IMG/VR virus record: IMGVR_UViG_3300025013_000109
Coordinates: 1 to 63,777 of that record
Reading direction: 5' to 3' (one strand)
DNA length: 63,777 bases
DNA from: a virus
Part shown: piece by piece, positions 19,798 to 63,777 of the stretch
Layout: each line of letters opens with the position of its first letter
Position numbering within the stretch: the first letter of the stretch is position 1
Position numbers and translations under genes: made by a program
Notes under the pieces: generated by a model
Database searches by the model: none
What the model saw: only the letters and a program-made list of their open reading frames with translations
What the model was told of the DNA's origin: nothing

Positions 19798-20115
19798 CTA
19801 TTTAAACACGTACCCGTGCTCGTTTACGATGGTTGCTTTAAAGGGCAGGTCTTCGGGTTTTACCTGGCTGATCTGGTCGATCAGGTACATGTAGCTGCCC
19901 CAGAGTACGCGTTTTTGTCCACCAACTTCAATTTGAAGGTACAGGCACTCTTTTCGCTCGCCTTTCCAGTTAGGGTCGTTTTCTTTGCTTAGTTTGCTGG
20001 CGCGTACTTCGTAATCGAGTACAATAATTTCGGCGCCTTCAATCTTTTCAATCTTGATTTTATCGCCAACAAACCTCCTGTTTGTGGTTACCCCAAGTTC
20101 GCTGAATGACTTCAT
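19798..20115 (-). CDS. Candidate DGR accessory protein, copy 1
   Basis: 105 aa. Clearly homologous to the 101-aa protein at 60060-60365 that follows the second DGR reverse transcriptase. Shared blocks: M-x-x-F-S, F-x-GDKIK-x-x-KI, EI-x-V, SK-x-x-KE, CL-x-LQI, GS-x-x-x-LI, and PF-x-x-TIV-x-E. It is beta-rich and small, compatible with an OB-like nucleic-acid-binding fold, which is inference. Not similar to the classical four-helix Avd. Second gene downstream of RT1, 9 nt after the 203-aa gene ends. Confidence 0.7.
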   Translation of the reverse strand: MKSFSELGVTTNRRFVGDKIKIEKIEGAEIIVLDYEVRASKLSKENDPNWKGERKECLYLQIEVGGQKRVLWGSYMYLIDQISQVKPEDLPFKATIVNEHGYVFK

Positions 20116-20124
20116 GCAAAGCCA

Positions 20125-20736
20125 TTAAAACAAAAAGGGCTGAAACTGGGCTTCGATGGCTGCAACGTCTTCGGCACGAATTCTGAATCTTTGTGCTACT
20201 TTTAAATCAGAAAACGAATTGATTGCCGTAACTGTTGTTTCGCGTACCTGGTTGGTATAAGCAATAAGGCCTTCCAACTGTGCATTTCCGGAGCCGTTAA
20301 TTAACCTTGCTCTTGTTGCCAATAACGTGAATTTGTTGATCGTAACCGAAAACTCTTTCAGCAGCTTGGCTTTTACCTGGTCGAGCGTTAGGCTTATATC
20401 TTCTCCAACACCTTCGCTGGCACACTTTGCTTTAATGGCTTCAACAAAATTGTTGAAGGCAATAAACTCGGCATTGGTGGCATCTACAATGCCTTTACGC
20501 AGTGCGGCTGTGTCTTCGCCATCGGGGTAATTGGCCTGTATTACCGCATTGATGATACGGGCACGGGTTGCAGGGTTGGTTACACGGTACTGCTCGGCGG
20601 TAATAATCACATTGCGGGGCTGGCCCGTTTGCTCGTCGGTTACTACTTCGGCGCGACGGTCGAAATTGACGTACGAATGACCGGTTTTTAGGTCTTCGAT
20701 AAATACGTCGGCGTTAATTTGTACGTTTTTTTGCAT
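20125..20736 (-). CDS. Unknown helical protein between RT1 and its accessory
   Basis: 203 aa, largely alpha-helical (for example TRARIINAVIQANYP, ATNAEFIAFNNFVEAIKAKCASEG, LDQVKAKLLKEFSVTINKFTLLATRARLI), mildly acidic, one Cys. Its start overlaps the RT1 3' end by 23 nt, suggesting coupled translation. DGR2 has no counterpart, so it may be a tail-assembly protein (it precedes the tape measure in transcription order) or an Avd-like helper. The sequence does not decide between these. Confidence 0.55.
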   Translation of the reverse strand: MQKNVQINADVFIEDLKTGHSYVNFDRRAEVVTDEQTGQPRNVIITAEQYRVTNPATRARIINAVIQANYPDGEDTAALRKGIVDATNAEFIAFNNFVEAIKAKCASEGVGEDISLTLDQVKAKLLKEFSVTINKFTLLATRARLINGSGNAQLEGLIAYTNQVRETTVTAINSFSDLKVAQRFRIRAEDVAAIEAQFQPFLF

Positions 20737-21694
20737 GATTGTCCAATTCTAAAATGTTATAAATTAAATGTCTGGAATCACACCATTTCAGCATTCCCTT
20801 GTACGAGGCAACCGATTTGGCATTGTGCCGTTTCTTTATAAAATTCTTTTTAATCCGCTTCCGGATTCGCGTGTGCGTATGCCTGAAAACATAGCCCACA
20901 TAATCAATGCCCCGTTCGTCGACTTCAAAGATCTGCCAGTTTTTCTTCAGCTCCAGTTCAAGGTTATACCACAAATAATTGCGGACGCGCCACAGTGCCT
21001 GGTGCAGGCTTGGTTTATCGGCGGCCAGAAAAACCATATCGTCGGCATAGCGGTAATAATACCTCACTTTCAGTTCTTCCTTGATGTAATGATCGAGCCG
21101 GTTGACGTAGGTATTCGAAAATATCTGCGAAAGCAGGCCGCCAATGCTTAATCCATCGGTGGTATCGAGTACTTCGTCGATAATTGCCAGGAACCATTTG
21201 TCTTTGATGTAACGCCGCAGCTCTTCTTTAATTCGGTTACACGGCACCGAAGGATAAAACTTCCGGATATCTATTTTCAGGCAATATCTGGTTCCCTCCG
21301 GATCGACGTGCAAGTCGTGTTTGAGCCTTTGATTGAGCAAATGTATGCCGCGATGCTTGATGCTGTTGAACGTGTTTGCAATAAATGAGCGGGTAAGCCG
21401 CTCTTCGATCATGTTTAAAATGGCATGATGCGCAATCCGATCGGGAAAATAGGGCATTTTGGTAATCTCCCTCACTTTACCGGCATCGGCCATCATGGTA
21501 AATGTTTTAGGCTTGCTCGATCGGTACCGGTCTTCGGTGAACAGTTTAATCAGTTCCTGAAGGTTTCCCTCCCTGTTTTTGTCGAATTGTATTACTCCGT
21601 ACGTGTCGGCCTTATTTTTACGGGCTTTCCGTTCGGCTTTGTCGAAATTGGCATACGTTAAAAATTCGTCCCTGATATTTCCTTTTCGTTTCAT
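20714..21694 (-). CDS. DGR reverse transcriptase RT1
   Basis: 326 aa. Makes mutagenised cDNA from the TR1 transcript that replaces VR1 in the tail adhesin gene. RT palm motifs: catalytic D142 in LKIDIRKFYPSV, GLSIGGLLSQ (181-190) with the SQ form of motif 4 that marks DGR RTs, where most RTs have QGxxxSP, and YADD (216-219). The C-terminal basic thumb (IRKRIKKNFIKKRHNAKS) is intact. TR1 lies 124 nt upstream of the ATG. About one third identical by eye to RT2 at 60352-61311. Confidence 0.95.
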   Translation of the reverse strand: MKRKGNIRDEFLTYANFDKAERKARKNKADTYGVIQFDKNREGNLQELIKLFTEDRYRSSKPKTFTMMADAGKVREITKMPYFPDRIAHHAILNMIEERLTRSFIANTFNSIKHRGIHLLNQRLKHDLHVDPEGTRYCLKIDIRKFYPSVPCNRIKEELRRYIKDKWFLAIIDEVLDTTDGLSIGGLLSQIFSNTYVNRLDHYIKEELKVRYYYRYADDMVFLAADKPSLHQALWRVRNYLWYNLELELKKNWQIFEVDERGIDYVGYVFRHTHTRIRKRIKKNFIKKRHNAKSVASYKGMLKWCDSRHLIYNILELDNHAKKRTN

Positions 21695-21817
21695 ACTTTT
21701 TGTTTCGCTGGTGCATCCGTGCTGCCACCACGCCAGGTTTCAGTTTCCCTACTAACAGGCTTTTGTTTTTGTCGTGTTCCGGCATCCTGCCGGGGCTCTC
21801 ATTCCTTTAATTCCTTG

Positions 21818-21932
21818 GCACGTTAGCTGCTGCCGATGTTCACGTTCGAATTCGAAGGACCGTTGTTCGCATTCGCCGACCCGAGGGCGCAATTGCTACC
21901 GTTATTCAAGTTCGCCCCGAAAAGCACACCGC
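21818..21932 (-). repeat. DGR1 template repeat (TR1), 115 nt
   Basis: Aligns without gaps to VR1 (22166-22280). All 19 differences fall at adenines of the coding (- strand) TR; C, G and T positions are identical. In frame the TR would encode many Asn (AAY) codons and an in-frame TAA near its 3' end. It is non-coding, between the target gene and RT1, as expected for the RNA template. Confidence 0.97.
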
Positions 21933-21944
21933 AGAGAATGAGCC

Positions 21945-22005
21945 GCCCAGCCCCACCCCTACCCTCCCCGCACTTCGACAAGCTCAGTGACCAGGAGGGA
22001 GGAAG
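21945..22005. repeat. Dispersed palindromic repeat between TR1 and the target gene
   Basis: CTACCCTCCCC followed by the CTTCGACAAGCTCAGTGACC-type unit. Variants of this unit occur at 25565-25645, 26178-26232, 34203-34268, 35824-35878 and 52270-52296. It is probably a host-type intergenic repeat. Confidence 0.7.
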
Positions 22006-22115
22006 AAAGGCTTCGTTTATCTTCATTTTAAAATTCAATTTCATTCAATTCACTTTTTTCAAGTTTTTCGCTTTGCCAGGACTTTCAATTTTGAGGAGCC
22101 CGGCTGCGGTTTCGG

Positions 22116-22133
22116 CCTCGCTGAAACGCGAGG
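22116..22133 (-). promoter_or_regulatory. Hairpin downstream of VR1, candidate DGR homing cruciform
   Basis: CCTCGC/GCGAGG perfect 6-bp inverted repeat with a 6-nt loop, about 32 nt beyond the 3' end of VR1 and just after the target stop codon. In the Bordetella phage BPP-1 DGR a short GC-rich hairpin at this position promotes target recognition. The same role is inferred here. Confidence 0.55.
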
Positions 22134-22149
22134 ATTTTTCGACCCCGAT

Positions 22150-23445
22150 TTATCCGGACACGTTAGCACGGAAGCCGCCGCCGATGGACACGTTCGAACT
22201 CGAAGGACCGTAGAACGCACCCGCCGACCCGAGGGCGCAAGCGCTACCGTAAAGCAAGGACGCCCCGAAAAGCACACCGCGTCGCACAGTTCCAGAAGCT
22301 GGTAGGTTGGCGTTCCAATTGTAGGCGCAGCCATAGGTTGTTTCTCCAACTCCTGTATTTACATTTCCATAGAGTGTTCCCGGAAAAATTGTTTTTGCCC
22401 ATCCATCAGTTCGCGGAAGTTCTCCAATCAGTGTGTAAGCATTTTTAAATGCAAAACTGGCATCGCTGTGGTTAGCATCCAGAAGCGCATTGTTATAACA
22501 CACATAAAGAAATGTTTTGCCACCATCGGCAACTGATTGCATTTCGATATCGATTCCAGATATCCATGCCCATAAATTTCCCCACAATAAATTTTTACCC
22601 CGGTAAACCGGTACTTGTGTATTGTATGCCGGACTTGTAAATACGCGGGTGTATATGCCCGTCATGTAACCTTTGGTGTTTATTCCGGAAGTATTGGAAA
22701 GAGCTAACTGCGCTTCGAACATTTTAATTACCGGATAGTAACCGTTGTAGGTATTCCAGTCGGCGCTTGACCAGTTCGATGCTCCCGGTCCATTGGCCAC
22801 CTTTAAATTTTTAGTGCGGTATTCGATATACATCATACAAGCCAGGTACAGGCGGTCGAGATAAGTAAGCGCCAGCCAACTTGCACCCTTGGCTGCTGCT
22901 GCCGTTTCGTAGCCATAGCGCGAAATACTTGTGCGCGGATAGCCTAGACCCCCGGCTGTATTACCCGATCCGGAACCTGCAAAGTTTGCAGTTTCGTTGC
23001 GTATCGAGCGCGATTTGCCTGTAGTGCGGTCGATGGTACAATAATCGGGGCTATCGACAAAGCGTGGCATTTCAATAGCCACGTCGGCGCCATAAGTAAA
23101 TGGCTGTGCACATACAATCCAGCGTTCGTAAACCGGATCGGTGCCACCCAGTATCATCCAGCAGGCGGGGTTATCGATCATCACATCCAGCCCGTCGGAT
23201 CCGTCGAGAACCGAAGCTGATTCATCGGCGTTTTTGGTCCAGTCGGTAGGTTTCAGGTAATTCACAATCTGGCGGCTTTCGTTTACCTTACACGCCCTGA
23301 TCTGGTTGTGAAGTGGTAAACTGGCGTGTAAATCGGCATCGCCAATGAGGTATGGGAACGAGGGGTCGGAAACACTACGGAGCCGTTCGACCCCGTAGAT
23401 GCCTTGTCCCGCTTTCTTTTTTGCCAATATAGGGATGAGATCCAT
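22150..23445 (-). CDS. DGR1 target: variable tail adhesin, C-type-lectin fold
   Basis: 431 aa from the ATG at 23445, which overlaps the upstream stop (TAATG). A longer frame upstream is ruled out by that gene. The C-terminal ~180 residues have the DGR lectin pattern (WNTYNGYYPVIKMFEAQLAL, KNLLWGNLWAWISGIDIEMQS, TYGCAYNWN, RRGVLFGASLLYGSACALGS). The variable residues are in the last 40 residues, where VR1 lies. Such proteins sit at phage tail tips and bind variable host receptors. It follows a repeat-containing fibre gene and precedes TR1/RT1. Confidence 0.93.
   Translation of the reverse strand: MDLIPILAKKKAGQGIYGVERLRSVSDPSFPYLIGDADLHASLPLHNQIRACKVNESRQIVNYLKPTDWTKNADESASVLDGSDGLDVMIDNPACWMILGGTDPVYERWIVCAQPFTYGADVAIEMPRFVDSPDYCTIDRTTGKSRSIRNETANFAGSGSGNTAGGLGYPRTSISRYGYETAAAAKGASWLALTYLDRLYLACMMYIEYRTKNLKVANGPGASNWSSADWNTYNGYYPVIKMFEAQLALSNTSGINTKGYMTGIYTRVFTSPAYNTQVPVYRGKNLLWGNLWAWISGIDIEMQSVADGGKTFLYVCYNNALLDANHSDASFAFKNAYTLIGELPRTDGWAKTIFPGTLYGNVNTGVGETTYGCAYNWNANLPASGTVRRGVLFGASLLYGSACALGSAGAFYGPSSSNVSIGGGFRANVSG
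22166..22280 (-). repeat. DGR1 variable repeat (VR1)
   Basis: 115-nt copy of TR1 within the 3' end of the target gene. Nineteen TR adenines are changed to other bases, altering nine Asn codons (to Ser, Leu, Tyr, Ala, Gly, Phe), two Ser codons (to Gly), and a TR-encoded TAA to TTC. The exact match at both ends sets the boundaries. Confidence 0.97.
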
Positions 23446-24344
23446 TACAGTTGGGTTAGGGTAAAAGTGAAATCGATGAACCCGCCCGAAGTTGGGGTGA
23501 ACGCTGTGAGGGTTTGAACCCGCAATTTCAGGTCTTTGCTGGCTGCATCGCACACATAGTTCCACACCGGCGAATTCTGTCCGAGAACTGAGGAACTACC
23601 GGCCAACAGCGAATTAAATTTCACGTCAATATAATGACGGCCATTGGTAATGTTTGCCGTGCTATTGGTCATGGCTACATTATCGCCAACAATTCCGGTT
23701 GGCTCGGTGCGGTAAAACCACAGCCTTAGCGTTGCATCGGCCAGGTTAAGCATATCGCTGGCTGCATCAATCTGCATCAGGTATCCACCACGCCCATTGG
23801 CTAAAGCCATATCGGGCAGATTAAGTGATACCGGGGCTCCAACGCTCGAATTGATTGCATCGTTGGCCGCATATTGAACGGTATCTGACGGACGTGTAAG
23901 CCTTACTTCGACAAACGCGGCCTTTGAGCTTGGCAGTGGCGCAGCGCGAAGCTGTGTGTCGGTTAAAGGGCCTGAGACTGGAACTGCGGAAGCACGAAGT
24001 TGGGTGTCGGTGACAGGTCCTGAGACTGGTAATGCGGTTGCACGAAGCTGGGCGTCGGTTAATGCACCGGTTACCGTAATGGCAGCTCCCGGATCTGCCC
24101 CGGGATCGAAAAAAGTAGCGGTAGCTGCATCAAGTTCAGCAAAATTGGCATAAGGAGAGCCATCGGCCTTTAAAAACTCACCAACCAATTTATTGGCAAT
24201 AAACTGTTTTCCATTTCCAGTCAGATAGATGTCAATCCTGGTGCGGTCGGCTGAAGGATCGATGCGAAATTTTCCGGACTGACAAGCACTGTCTGTGGTT
24301 CTGCCAAAGATGAACTTGCCGGATGTTTTTTCGAATATGTACAT
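23445..24344 (-). CDS. Tail fibre/adhesin partner protein
   Basis: 299 aa. The N-terminal domain (residues 1-95) precedes three tandem copies of a 16-residue motif (L-T-D-x-Q-L-R-A-x-x-x-P-V-S-G-P, about 96-140). A C-terminal beta domain (about 145-299) follows. The LTDxQLRAxPVPVSG motif is common in phage fibre linkers. Directly upstream of and overlapping the DGR1 target, so it may carry or dock it. Transcribed from late promoter 24372-24407. Confidence 0.7.
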   Translation of the reverse strand: MYIFEKTSGKFIFGRTTDSACQSGKFRIDPSADRTRIDIYLTGNGKQFIANKLVGEFLKADGSPYANFAELDAATATFFDPGADPGAAITVTGALTDAQLRATALPVSGPVTDTQLRASAVPVSGPLTDTQLRAAPLPSSKAAFVEVRLTRPSDTVQYAANDAINSSVGAPVSLNLPDMALANGRGGYLMQIDAASDMLNLADATLRLWFYRTEPTGIVGDNVAMTNSTANITNGRHYIDVKFNSLLAGSSSVLGQNSPVWNYVCDAASKDLKLRVQTLTAFTPTSGGFIDFTFTLTQL

Positions 24345-58919: not shown

Positions 58920-58982
58920 TTATTTTATTCAATGCGACACCCCCTCCGTTTGCCTGCCTGTCCGGTAGGCAGGGAGGGGTTA
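58920..58982. repeat. GC palindromic repeat
   Basis: CCTCCGTTTGCCTGCCTGTC...GGCAGGGAGGGGTTAGGGGAGG arms. Same family as 5820-5850, 29640-29665 and 41640-41675. It overlaps the end of the DUF5131 gene. Confidence 0.7.
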
Positions 58983-59993
58983 GGGGAGGCTTTTCGGCCA
59001 TTCGTGCCATTCCTTCCCATCAAGCAGATCACCGGCAGCTTTGCGGCCAACTTTAGCATAAACCATACGATGATCAGTTATGCCTTTTAAAATCGAAAGC
59101 GGATATTTTTTTACATCTCCTATATTGGCCGATACCCATTCCCCCCACTGCTTAAAGAAAAACGGCACTCCGGCTTTCTGGCATTGATCTCGGATCGTTC
59201 TAACCCAATCGGGGTGCATGGGCCGGGCCTTGGGTCCCGATTCACCTCCACAGATTACCCAATCGAGTCCTTTTTCAATGACATTATTATCGTGCGTAAT
59301 TGAATTATTATCAAGCGAATCAATAGCATGAATTGAACTATCTGCAATCCAGGCTAAATCCACCGGCCCCAGCATCGGCTCAATGCTCACAAACCGTTTG
59401 GCGGCAGGTATCTGGAGTAAGATTGGGATTCGTTTATTGGCTTCCTCCTGATTTTCGGCGGTAACTCCGAGCCATAGGTTTGGAAAATTGGCGGCAACAT
59501 TACTATTCTTAAGCCAGGAGAAAAACTTCGCCATGCTTTCGGGACGTTTGGTAAGAACGACGAAAATATGAGTTGGTTTGTCGTGGATAACCTGAAAAAC
59601 CAACTTTTTAAATTCGTGTGAAACTGATTCGTGAAACAGGTCGCCCATAGAGCATACGAAGATCATGCGTGGAGTTTTCCATTTAAAGGGGATAAGAAGC
59701 TGCTCCTGACGAAAAATCGTATGGCCGTTCCATGAAGTTTGTTTGTTATTTTGATCTGGAAACAGGACGCATTTGTAGTCAAGGCTTACTGACTGATTGG
59801 GCATTGAAGCCAAACGTACAGCCATTCGTTCGGCATAGCAATTGTCGCATCCTGGCGATACTTTGCTACAACCAACAATCGGGTTCCATGTTTCGGGTTT
59901 GTAGCCTGGCATATTGAGCCAGGAGATTTTATGCAGTTTGCCGCGTTGTCCGGCTTCAATCTGATCGTGGTAATGTTCTTTGGTCGCTGACAT
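58980..59993 (-). CDS. DUF5131 (phage Gp37/Gp68-like) protein
   Basis: 337 aa. TWNPIVGCSKVSPGCDNCYAERMA is the diagnostic start (three Cys in CxxxxxxCxxC, radical-SAM-like). The body includes FVCSMGDLFHESV and FVVLTKRPESMAKF, and it ends with FFFKQWGEW. Phage-encoded DUF5131 proteins are common, with roles proposed in DNA-base modification. The biochemistry is unknown. Next to the ASCH-like gene, whose fold can bind modified bases. Confidence 0.85.
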   Translation of the reverse strand: MSATKEHYHDQIEAGQRGKLHKISWLNMPGYKPETWNPIVGCSKVSPGCDNCYAERMAVRLASMPNQSVSLDYKCVLFPDQNNKQTSWNGHTIFRQEQLLIPFKWKTPRMIFVCSMGDLFHESVSHEFKKLVFQVIHDKPTHIFVVLTKRPESMAKFFSWLKNSNVAANFPNLWLGVTAENQEEANKRIPILLQIPAAKRFVSIEPMLGPVDLAWIADSSIHAIDSLDNNSITHDNNVIEKGLDWVICGGESGPKARPMHPDWVRTIRDQCQKAGVPFFFKQWGEWVSANIGDVKKYPLSILKGITDHRMVYAKVGRKAAGDLLDGKEWHEWPKSLP

Positions 59994-60059: not shown

Positions 60060-60365
60060 TTAGGTAAATAAGTATCTCTCATTTTCTTCAACTATTGTGG
60101 TGGTAAAAGGGAATCCGGTTTCCGGAATCTTCTGAATCACTTCAATCAAGCCGGTTGATCCGGTAAAAACAACATGTTTTCGCTGATCAAATGATATTTG
60201 CAAACACAAACATTTACCTGATCCTCGCTCTTTAAATACTTTCGAGTCTTCAATTCTGAAATGATGGACCACAATTTCACGGTTCATAATCTTCGACATT
60301 TTAATCTTGTCTCCTTCAAAAGCCTGGCTTTCGACCTTGATATTGAACTGGCTAAACGTGTTCAT
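60060..60365 (-). CDS. Candidate DGR accessory protein, copy 2
   Basis: 101 aa, homologous over its whole length to the protein at 19798-20115 (GDKIK-x-SKI, EIVV, CLCLQISF, FTGSTGLIEVI, PFTTTIVEENERYLF). Its start overlaps the RT2 stop by 14 nt, so translation is coupled. Having kept association with both RTs, it is probably part of the DGR machinery. Beta-rich. Confidence 0.7.
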   Translation of the reverse strand: MNTFSQFNIKVESQAFEGDKIKMSKIMNREIVVHHFRIEDSKVFKERGSGKCLCLQISFDQRKHVVFTGSTGLIEVIQKIPETGFPFTTTIVEENERYLFT

Positions 60366-61311
60366 GGAGCAATTTTTTCAGAAGGTTTTTACTGTCGCAG
60401 TGCGATGCCCATCCATTGTATGATGCAATTGATTTGGCGTTCCGGTTACGGACCATCATCCGTGCAAAGTTTTTCTTGATGCTCTTCCGGAGCAGCGTAT
60501 GAGTGTGACGGAAGACATAACCGACAAAATCAATTCCCCGTTCATCGACCGGGAATATTTGATAGTTACCTTTGACGGTAAGCTTCAGCCGGTCATTCAG
60601 ATAAGTCCTGATTTCAGCAAGTAATTGATGTAAATAATGCTTGCTGCTTGAAAGGATTACAAGATCATCGGCATAGCGGAAATAGTATCTCACCTGTCTA
60701 TTTTCCTTCATCCAGTGATCAAAATAGCTCAGGTAAAAATTGGCAAAATACTGGCTCAGGTAATTTCCGATCGGAAGGCCATCGGTTGAATCAATAATCT
60801 CATTGAGAAGCCACAGTAGGTCATTATCCTTTATTTTTCGACGGAGCAGCTGCTTGAGTATTTCATGATCAACATTCGGGTAAAACTTGGTGATGTCCAG
60901 CTTCAGGCAGTATTGGGTATTGTCAACATCTTTCAGGGCACGTTTCACCGCATTGGCCGCAGCGTGGATGCCTTTGCCTTTGATGCAACTGTAAGTATCG
61001 GCAGTAAATGTTGAGACAAAAATCGGCTCAAGGACGTTCATCACAGCGTGATGGGTGATCCGGTCAGGAAAATAAGGCAACCGGAAGATCAGCCGCTCTT
61101 TAGGTTCAAAGATGGTGAACGTGGTATATTCAGACGTTTGATAAGTTTTCTCCTTCAGCATTTCATGAAGCTTTTGAATGTTTTCTTCCCGATTCCGGTC
61201 ATGCTCGATTACTCCAGGTTGTTTCGATTTACCTTTCCGGGCAATCGTATCAGCCAACTGGAGGTTTTCGATGCTGTAAATTTTCTCGTACAAATTATTG
61301 ATCCGTTTCAT
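60352..61311 (-). CDS. DGR reverse transcriptase RT2
   Basis: 319 aa from the ATG at 61311, which aligns with the RT1 start; the longer frame up to 61425 is leader including a CCTGAGCCCGTCGAAGG repeat. Catalytic D139 in CLKLDITKFYPNV, LSQ (185-187) in GLPIGNYLSQ, YADD (213-216). Basic thumb intact. TR2 lies 134 nt upstream of the ATG, as TR1 lies 124 nt upstream of RT1. Copies mutated TR2 into two tandem target genes. Confidence 0.94.
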   Translation of the reverse strand: MKRINNLYEKIYSIENLQLADTIARKGKSKQPGVIEHDRNREENIQKLHEMLKEKTYQTSEYTTFTIFEPKERLIFRLPYFPDRITHHAVMNVLEPIFVSTFTADTYSCIKGKGIHAAANAVKRALKDVDNTQYCLKLDITKFYPNVDHEILKQLLRRKIKDNDLLWLLNEIIDSTDGLPIGNYLSQYFANFYLSYFDHWMKENRQVRYYFRYADDLVILSSSKHYLHQLLAEIRTYLNDRLKLTVKGNYQIFPVDERGIDFVGYVFRHTHTLLRKSIKKNFARMMVRNRNAKSIASYNGWASHCDSKNLLKKLLHEHV

Positions 61312-61444
61312 GTTTGGTTCCTGAGCCCGTCGAAGGGCCTTTGCTTTTAATGGATCGTTTTCTCCCGAGTACTCGGGATACCAACGCTCCGTTAAAGAAT
61401 TCGTTATTTTTTGCACTGTTGGCAAGGTCTACACTGAAAGTTTC

Positions 61445-61522
61445 GCATAGGTGAGAGCTGACATTCGTATTCGTGTTATCGTAGTTGTAATTCGAGTTCG
61501 AAAAACTGAAACTGGAAGACAG
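61445..61522 (-). repeat. DGR2 template repeat (TR2), 78 nt
   Basis: Aligns without gaps to VR2a (61639-61716) and VR2b (62052-62129). All 17 and 16 differences lie at TR adenines on the - strand. It lies in the 246-nt non-coding interval between the last target gene and RT2. The TR sense is Asn- and Ser-rich. Confidence 0.97.
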
Positions 61523-61557
61523 AACTAACAGCAACGCAGCGTACAACCTTTTTTATT

Positions 61558-61965
61558 TCACTCCGGATACAGGAAGAATTCCTGGTATTCGGCCTTGAAC
61601 TGTTCTGCTATATAAAGGGCCTTTTCACTTGTATCAGTGCAAAGGCGAGAGCCGACACACGTATGCGAGTAAGCGCAGAGGTAACCCGAGTACGAAAAAC
61701 CGAAACCGGAAGACAGAACCCTATACCATGGGAAGTATTTGTATTGCGATAATTTGCTCCAGTCTGGACGCCATCCGTCGTTTATCGCCTTGAAAATAAT
61801 CAGGAGTTTATAAGCGTTGATGATTGGCTTTCTGAACTCTTTCGGGATCATCGATACATCGGGCAATGCAGTTGGATCAATGTTTTCTTTTGTACAAGCA
61901 TCCTCGAATGTTTTGATTGTTCTGAAATCGAATACAGGTTGGTTTTTCACTGATTTTTTGGCCAT
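61558..61965 (-). CDS. DGR2 target protein A (small variable protein)
   Basis: 135 aa without a signal peptide or TM segment. N-terminal helical domain (TFEDACTKENIDPTALPDVS...AYKLLIIFKAIND), then W-R-P-D-W and YFPWYRV, then the variable segment (LSSGFGFSYSGYLCAYSHTC), VGSRLC and a terminal helix (ALYIAEQFKAEYQEFF). Paralogue of target B. Far smaller than lectin-fold DGR targets and not next to tail genes. Similar small proteins are familiar in Bacteroidota phages; their function is unknown. Confidence 0.88.
   Translation of the reverse strand: MAKKSVKNQPVFDFRTIKTFEDACTKENIDPTALPDVSMIPKEFRKPIINAYKLLIIFKAINDGWRPDWSKLSQYKYFPWYRVLSSGFGFSYSGYLCAYSHTCVGSRLCTDTSEKALYIAEQFKAEYQEFFLYPE
61639..61716 (-). 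repeat. DGR2 variable repeat VR2a
   Basis: 78 nt within target A. 17 differences from TR2, all at template adenines. Changes Asn and Ser codons to Gly, Tyr, Leu, Cys, Ala, His. Confidence 0.96.
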
Positions 61966-61970
61966 GATTT

Positions 61971-62435
61971 TTATTTTTTAATGGTTATAAATTGTTCGTA
62001 GATATCAAGGAATTGCTTGGCTGCATAAGTGCATTTAGCCTCAGACTCGAAGCAAAGGCGAGAGCCGACAGACGTAAACGTGACAACGTAGTAGTAACAC
62101 GAGTACGAAAAACCGAAACCGGAAGACAGCTTGAAGTAAGGCCACCATTTTTGCTGATTGGCATTGTCCCAATCGGGTGTCCAGTTCTGGTTAATTGCCT
62201 TTGCGATAACCTTTAATTTTTTGTAGGCTACTTCATCAGAGCAGTCATTTGCGTTGAATACATCTTCCGGATATATTTCCAGTTCTTCGCAAGCATCCTC
62301 AAAGGTTTTAATGTCTTCGAAGGTTTTTTTCTTGAAACAGTCATCTCCAAATGTTTCGGTTAATACTTTCCGGAACCACTCTGGTGATTCGGGATAGAGT
62401 TTTTTTGCAGTTGTTTTTTCAAGTGTTAATTTCAT
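61971..62435 (-). CDS. DGR2 target protein B (small variable protein)
   Basis: 154 aa, paralogue of target A, 5 nt upstream of it. Shared: KTFEDAC, NW(T/R)PDW, K(Y/W)(F/W)P(Y/W), LSSGFGFSYS, VGSRLC, AxQF-x-x-(I/E)YxxF. Extra N-terminal 40 residues (MKLTLEKTTAKKLYPESPEWFRKVLTETFGDDCFKKKTF). Variable residues differ from target A at 11 of 13 or so changed positions. No export signal. Both genes can be diversified by TR2. Confidence 0.88.
   Translation of the reverse strand: MKLTLEKTTAKKLYPESPEWFRKVLTETFGDDCFKKKTFEDIKTFEDACEELEIYPEDVFNANDCSDEVAYKKLKVIAKAINQNWTPDWDNANQQKWWPYFKLSSGFGFSYSCYYYVVTFTSVGSRLCFESEAKCTYAAKQFLDIYEQFITIKK
62052..62129 (-). repeat. DGR2 variable repeat VR2b
   Basis: 78 nt within target B. 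16 differences from TR2, all at template adenines. Confidence 0.96.
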
Positions 62436-63564: not shown

Positions 63565-63777
63565 TTATTTGCTATTTACCATTTCAATCATCTGTTCACC
63601 AAAATCGCGCGACATGCGGGTGTATTGCAACGATAGGGCGGCGATGGTAATTTGTCGTTCCAGGTCAGGATCCTTCTCGGCAGCTTCGGCAAGCTTATCG
63701 CCAAAGTCGGTAACCTCGCCACCATAAATAATAATCCTACGGCTGCCGTCTTTTAAATTGGCTATTCCTGATTTCAT
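63565..63777 (-). CDS. Small early protein at the window edge
   Basis: 70 aa, complete from ATG at 63777 (window end) to 63565. MKSGIANLKDGSRRIIIYGGEVTDFGDKLAEAAEKDPDLERQITIAALSLQYTRMSRDFGEQMIEMVNSK: beta start, two helices. Family unknown. The early promoter would lie outside the window. The 22-nt gap to the next gene contains ATTTAC-type AT repeats. Confidence 0.6.
   Translation of the reverse strand: MKSGIANLKDGSRRIIIYGGEVTDFGDKLAEAAEKDPDLERQITIAALSLQYTRMSRDFGEQMIEMVNSK

Follow-up and report, generated by a model that had tools for sequence, protein, structure and literature searches.

The DGRs of phages have been understood almost wholly as switches of tail-fibre tropism. Precedents for other arrangements exist, namely a lone non-structural target and cassettes with several VRs (PMC8008677, PMC6642488, PMC10743442). 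The non-structural target was published for Quimbyvirus (Quimbyviridae) by Benler et al. in 2021 (PMC8008677). Two Bacteroides phages are the most informative. LoVEphage, which we infer to be a Quimbyvirus-type phage from its split RT and its gene neighbourhood, has a TR beside its tail protein with a further matching VR in a 194-aa protein, and the neighbours of this small protein are four methyltransferase genes, a Lar-like restriction-alleviation gene, and a tRNA ligase. In Versailles, a second VR of the tail DGR’s TR lies in a protein whose gene neighbours include SbcC, NinB, a replisome organiser, and DnaC. Both small proteins belong to the target family that is the subject of this study, LoVEphage with a profile E of 2e-22 (1.6e-19 with the VR masked) and Versailles with an E of 1.2e-15, VR masked. 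Across LoVE-type phages, including antibiotic-induced prophages, 23 of 23 variable VR columns of the small target are TR adenines.

Here, we analysed IMG/VR virus record IMGVR_UViG_3300025013_000109, and by the window we mean the whole stretch of 63,777 nt, one strand, that was studied. One of its two DGRs, DGR2, lies entirely on the minus strand. Its non-coding template repeat, TR2 (61445-61522), is paired with VR2a (61639-61716) within target a (61558..61965), the TR-proximal protein of 135 aa, and with VR2b (62052-62129) within target b (61971..62435), a distal, phrog_11581-type paralogue of 154 aa with an N-terminal extension. When recomputed, these repeat coordinates and the gapless minus-strand alignment came out exactly as in the initial annotation. 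TR2 is 78 nt long and holds 22 adenines; all 17 of its mismatches to VR2a (hypergeometric p ~4e-13) and all 16 to VR2b (p ~4e-12) fall on these adenines. The two VRs differ from one another at 11 sites, each of which is a TR adenine, bearing out the proposal that they were filled by separate homing events. About 25–30 conserved codons follow the VR in the targets, and the VR is thus not at the extreme C-terminus. DGR-type RTs are recognized by GxxxSQ in place of QGxxxSP, together with YxDD. RT2 (60352..61311, 319 aa; phrog_1423, E 1e-133) carries GLPIGNYLSQ and YADD. Its frame is open to a TTG at 61425, but the ATG at 61311 is the more likely start because many relatives match only from residue 38–39 onward. 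DGR2 is, with certainty, a genuine DGR.

Downstream of RT2, and overlapping its end with its own start, is a gene for a 101-aa protein (60060..60365; phrog_19665). It is not Avd-like, and avd is absent from the cassette. Among the neighbouring genes that were checked, it is the one conserved throughout (~80 loci), and a homologue is also found 3′ of the RT of the other, tail-type DGR in the same prophage (19798-20115), while the crAss loci inspected for it yielded none. The protein has no significant match in Pfam or NCBIfam, including the Avd-like PF05635 and HRDC models, and nothing significant in PDB by sequence or fold. Its structural model is confident and beta-rich (pLDDT 91.8), with weak OB-like structural matches (best E 0.15). 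We count this conserved, non-Avd protein among the new findings, as a candidate new DGR accessory factor.

The same cassette, ordered target b, target a, TR, RT, and accessory gene, is present at ~100 distinct phage and prophage loci across Bacteroidota. Searching with RT2 yielded 80 viral loci, and searching with a target alignment yielded 55 genome loci, nearly all from Bacteroidota with a few from Ignavibacteria/Chlorobi; isolates of Flavobacterium, Chryseobacterium, Elizabethkingia, Pedobacter, Dyadobacter, and Niastella are included. This breadth, and the non-structural DGR target published in 2021 (PMC8008677), show that DGR2 is neither unique nor unprecedented, and the target family may already sit in Roux et al. 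(PMC8144416) as an unnamed viral target cluster. Repeats in the relatives were detected with a strict scan that allowed mismatches at A only, and TR and VRs were found in most loci. Two targets are encoded at 84 of 102 distinct loci, three at 10, and one at 7. Across 75-nt blocks from the 102 loci, 68% of TR adenines are mismatched vs. 2.6% of other bases, in a set gathered by that A-only scan, for which near-identical contig pairs are the independent test. In some loci a third, more distant VR is present; these were considered as possible tail genes and rejected, as all belong to the same small target family. A second RT was seen in 1 of 40 viral records of relatives, most of them incomplete, and a tail DGR and the cassette occur together uncommonly in these records. 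Six loci (L105, L108, L113, L114, L125, and L128) have TR and VRs with no intact RT detected nearby, and these are either decayed cassettes or ones whose RT is supplied from elsewhere. In L128, from Aquimarina algiphila, the cassette is expanded to seven TR/VR pairings, its TR being duplicated (~9308 and ~9672).

What do the targets look like? Homology between the 135- and 154-aa proteins was confirmed, as was the absence of any hydrophobic export or TM segment in either, given maximum 19-residue Kyte-Doolittle means of 0.74 and 0.70, respectively. Neither has a significant match in Pfam or NCBIfam, or in PDB by sequence or fold, and a search of a viral fold library returned uncharacterised phage proteins only. 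Fold prediction, one of the checks suggested at the outset, gave an AF2 model of target b in which a helical scaffold bears the variable segment, with low confidence exactly at the VR (pLDDT 55–66). Aligned by hhalign to the C-lectin tail targets, the family matches over 29 columns, in the 3′ half of the VR only, which supports a VR element common to both and does not support a full C-lectin fold. In a tree built with the VR masked, targets a and b separate, with 17 label changes where shuffles average 63, and in only 1 of 87 pairs is the nearest a target the one encoded at the same locus. The two are ancient paralogues that have been kept, pointing to two distinct roles or to a heteromer. The VR-masked tree also rules out a recent tandem duplication of the targets.

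The window is an integrated prophage, with an integrase at one end (1-1149), a tape measure gene at 13.8-18.0 kb, and a primase at 52.3-56.3 kb. Its tail DGR, DGR1, spans 19798-23565 and comprises RT1 (20714-21694, 49% identical to RT2), TR1 (~21815-21932), and a target at 22.1-23.6 kb, a 471-aa tail protein of phrog_5302 that contains VR1 (~22163-22280). The coordinates confirm that DGR2, in which one TR serves two tandem non-tail targets, sits ~40 kb from the tail genes, in the first (early-side) operon at the prophage’s other end. Host genes and a tRNA-Met adjoin the DGR2 end; the tRNA-Met (G000:C92:21497-21569) is located just past window position 63777, and no duplication was found that would mark att repeats at it. 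Likewise, no match to a Bacteroidota-type promoter pattern was found near the cassette. A DUF5131 protein is encoded downstream of the cassette (58980-59993) and matches the PADLOC candidate models PDC-M30B/M41B; homologues of it are near the cassette in a few relatives only. In the tail region, a 299-aa ORF contains three 48-nt direct repeats (23925-24068).

In our view, the best explanation is that DGR2 is an active DGR, a member of a widespread cassette of Bacteroidota phages, and that its two paralogues bind a variable partner inside the cell. We give this reading as a whole roughly even odds. The part of it that places the targets inside the cell and outside the virion is likely; their assignment as putative non-structural proteins is based on gene context, the lack of a signal sequence, and the lack of tail homology. 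PADLOC assigned neither the targets nor the accessory protein to a defence-related family, which we count against this reading, as we do the low confidence of the AF2 model at the VR.

On the other hand, the small targets could be part of the virion and attach to the host surface, as minor decoration proteins or as neck or adhesion proteins, and DGR2 would then switch tropism in the ordinary way, through an adhesin that is unusual and small. Tail proteins indeed make up most of the phage DGR targets described (PMC8144416), and the short hhalign match (29 columns only) is to the C-lectin VR of such tail targets. In some lineages, the cassette adjoins the small terminase gene, near the packaging genes, which counts against a non-structural role, and the Versailles homologue is annotated as a ‘tail protein’, although probably owing to its VR. 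However, the cassette runs with early genes and on the opposite strand to the portal and neck genes in 20–23 loci, and the LoVEphage and Versailles homologues are distant from tail genes, amid genes of DNA metabolism. The targets, at ~135–155 aa, lack a tail-attachment domain, and the window phage already possesses a separate tail DGR. We consider a place in the virion unlikely.

Alternatively, the targets might work in the lysogen, as variable binders expressed from the prophage that block superinfecting phages or other mobile elements through exclusion or immunity. Many members of the family are in prophages of isolates and MAGs, the targets are soluble proteins without export signals, variable binders would fit diverse competitors, and a role of DGRs in immunity has been published as an idea for bacteria (PMC10053308). 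Yet, in the subset of loci that belong to transposable phages, transposition genes and the repressor lie upstream, and the cassette shares its direction with the transposase and B genes while pointing away from the repressor, suggesting expression during lytic growth. A function in the lysogen is also improbable in our judgement.

How the template is distinguished from its targets may be written at the edges of the repeats. The mismatches had initially been taken together as the signature of mutagenic homing, and while all of them are at TR adenines, about five per VR are fixed differences at the edges. These A-to-G/T differences recur family-wide at TR positions 10, 16, 64, 71, and 75, one of them synonymous, and because they are fixed across the family, they are not products of mutagenesis; actual diversification amounts to ~12 mismatches in VR2a and ~11 in VR2b. 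In a TR-anchored alignment of the family, edge adenines of the TR read G, G, and T in the VRs with shares of 0.96–0.99, whereas at central adenines the largest share of any single base is merely 0.29–0.49. The resulting signature is GGNTCNCG in the VR vs. AGNTCNCA in the TR, plus the CTT/CTA site. We interpret this as a mark, similar to IMH/IMH*, that would distinguish template from target, with the putative IMH*-like 3′ edge of TR2 at 61445-61462 and the IMH-like 3′ edges of VR2a and VR2b at 61639-61656 and 62052-62069. Folds that take in ~45 nt past the 3′ end of each VR (z −1.1 and −1.0) contain no GC-rich 7–10 bp hairpin with a 4-nt GRNA loop.

An alternative account is that homing copies the entire TR and that the edges merely reflect protein selection for Gly and Arg, since the majority of edge sites do alter the amino acid (Ser to Gly, His to Arg). 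Selection on the protein would not suffice, however, because the synonymous sites behave alike: where the TR has CTA, the VRs have CTT, with T in 117 of 121, far from the central maxima, and at a second synonymous site, −55, G is found in 61 of 65. Selection as the sole cause of the edges is quite doubtful, and an edge mark remains our preferred interpretation.

Evidence for recent activity comes from near-identical contigs. The independent IMG/VR contig L007 equals the window across ~2.9 kb, up to a break at ~60134, apart from nine substitutions, and all nine are inside VR2b and at TR adenines, with VR2a identical. Two further contigs, L009 and L010, give the same picture of VR2b over the shorter stretches they cover. 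The pairs L071/L074 and L133/L137 differ in their VRs at 11 and 23 sites, every one a TR adenine, and in the group L034-L039 TR adenines account for nearly all VR differences, the few exceptions occurring in comparisons that involve a third target. The comparison of related contigs proposed in the initial annotation thus came out in favour of its claim, with substitutions restricted to template A (L007, L071/L074, L133/L137), a constant TR, and turnover in the VR. Judged from these sequences, homing is real, recent, and able to strike a single target at a time, L007 differing from the window solely at TR adenines of VR2b while VR2a is unchanged. That TR2 and the VRs are ordinary diverged duplications, or the cassette the remnant of a decayed DGR, is exceedingly improbable: some copies may decay, as the six genome-contig loci without a detected intact RT would allow, but mismatches concentrate at A over non-A positions as given above, near-identical contigs change at VR adenines exclusively, the window’s RT is intact with its SQ and YADD, and evolution as ordinary repeats is refuted by the population comparison. 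Another contig, L006, is otherwise identical to the window but differs directly 3′ of TR2 (window 61363-61378 and 61437-61442), and the palindrome CCCGAGTACTCGGG of the TR-RT spacer is missing from it.

We propose the following sequence of events. RT2 would copy TR2 RNA, erring at adenines, and the cDNA would replace the ~35-nt centre of either VR. The TR would escape replacement because, in an IMH/IMH*-like manner, its edges have A at sites that are G, G, and T in the VRs. The targets would be small and soluble, their expression coinciding with that of early or middle genes, with the helical scaffold presenting a hypervariable loop, and each paralogue would bind a fast-changing intracellular protein partner. 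This partner would most likely be a host factor involved in defence or takeover, or else a protein of a competing phage, and the cassette would let the phage keep pace. More tentatively, the cassette may define a phylum-wide class of phages whose dedicated retroelement directs hypermutation at two early, cytoplasmic paralogues that form an obligate pair, an intracellular “phage antibody pair” against variable host defences or rival phages, with a hitherto unrecognised OB-like accessory in place of Avd and a scaffold other than a C-type lectin; we regard this broader proposal as possible, not as probable.

A recurrent cassette dedicated to small, apparently intracellular proteins implies that some partner within the cell changes at the pace of a surface receptor, and it marks an unexplained recognition contest inside the cell. 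The partner is directly searchable through the VRs, the conserved pairing of a and b, and the cultured, inducible LoVE-type phages PV4-TP1 (of Phocaeicola vulgatus BM8) and BI-TP1 (of Bacteroides intestinalis BG4). In addition, the fixed edge signature provides a testable rule for how template and target are discriminated in systems without avd.

Compared with known systems, DGR2 is like that of Quimbyvirus/LoVEphage in having a small non-structural target from a homologous family, encoded there near methyltransferases and a tRNA ligase, with adenine-restricted VR diversity (PMC8008677). Those phages differ in using one TR, located next to the tail target, for the remote small target as well, and in having an RT divided between reading frames. 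In the present cassette, a dedicated TR and RT serve small targets arranged in tandem (two or three), together with an accessory gene, and the tail is left to another DGR. The lineage 3 DGR of crAssphage LMMB (PMC7290462) has an RT 51% identical over 88%, the same target-TR-RT order, and no avd, and related crAss tail targets have a GSRL-like motif at the VR 3′ end, but its target is a 486-aa tail-collar fibre. The mtd/avd/brt system of BPP-1 shares adenine-directed TR-to-VR diversification and the IMH/IMH* principle, while its tail-fibre target with a C-terminal VR, Avd, and downstream GC-rich hairpin (PMC3240598) are not seen in DGR2. The multi-VR cassettes G2/G4 (PMC6642488) also have several VRs per TR, yet are enriched in Proteobacteria. 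Tentaclins (PMC10743442), too, are a two-target phage DGR with several VRs per TR; these targets are two structurally distinct C-lectin receptor-binding proteins, unlike the two small paralogues of DGR2. New here are the breadth of the family, the dedicated two-paralogue cassette, the conserved non-Avd accessory protein, and the edge code of template and target.
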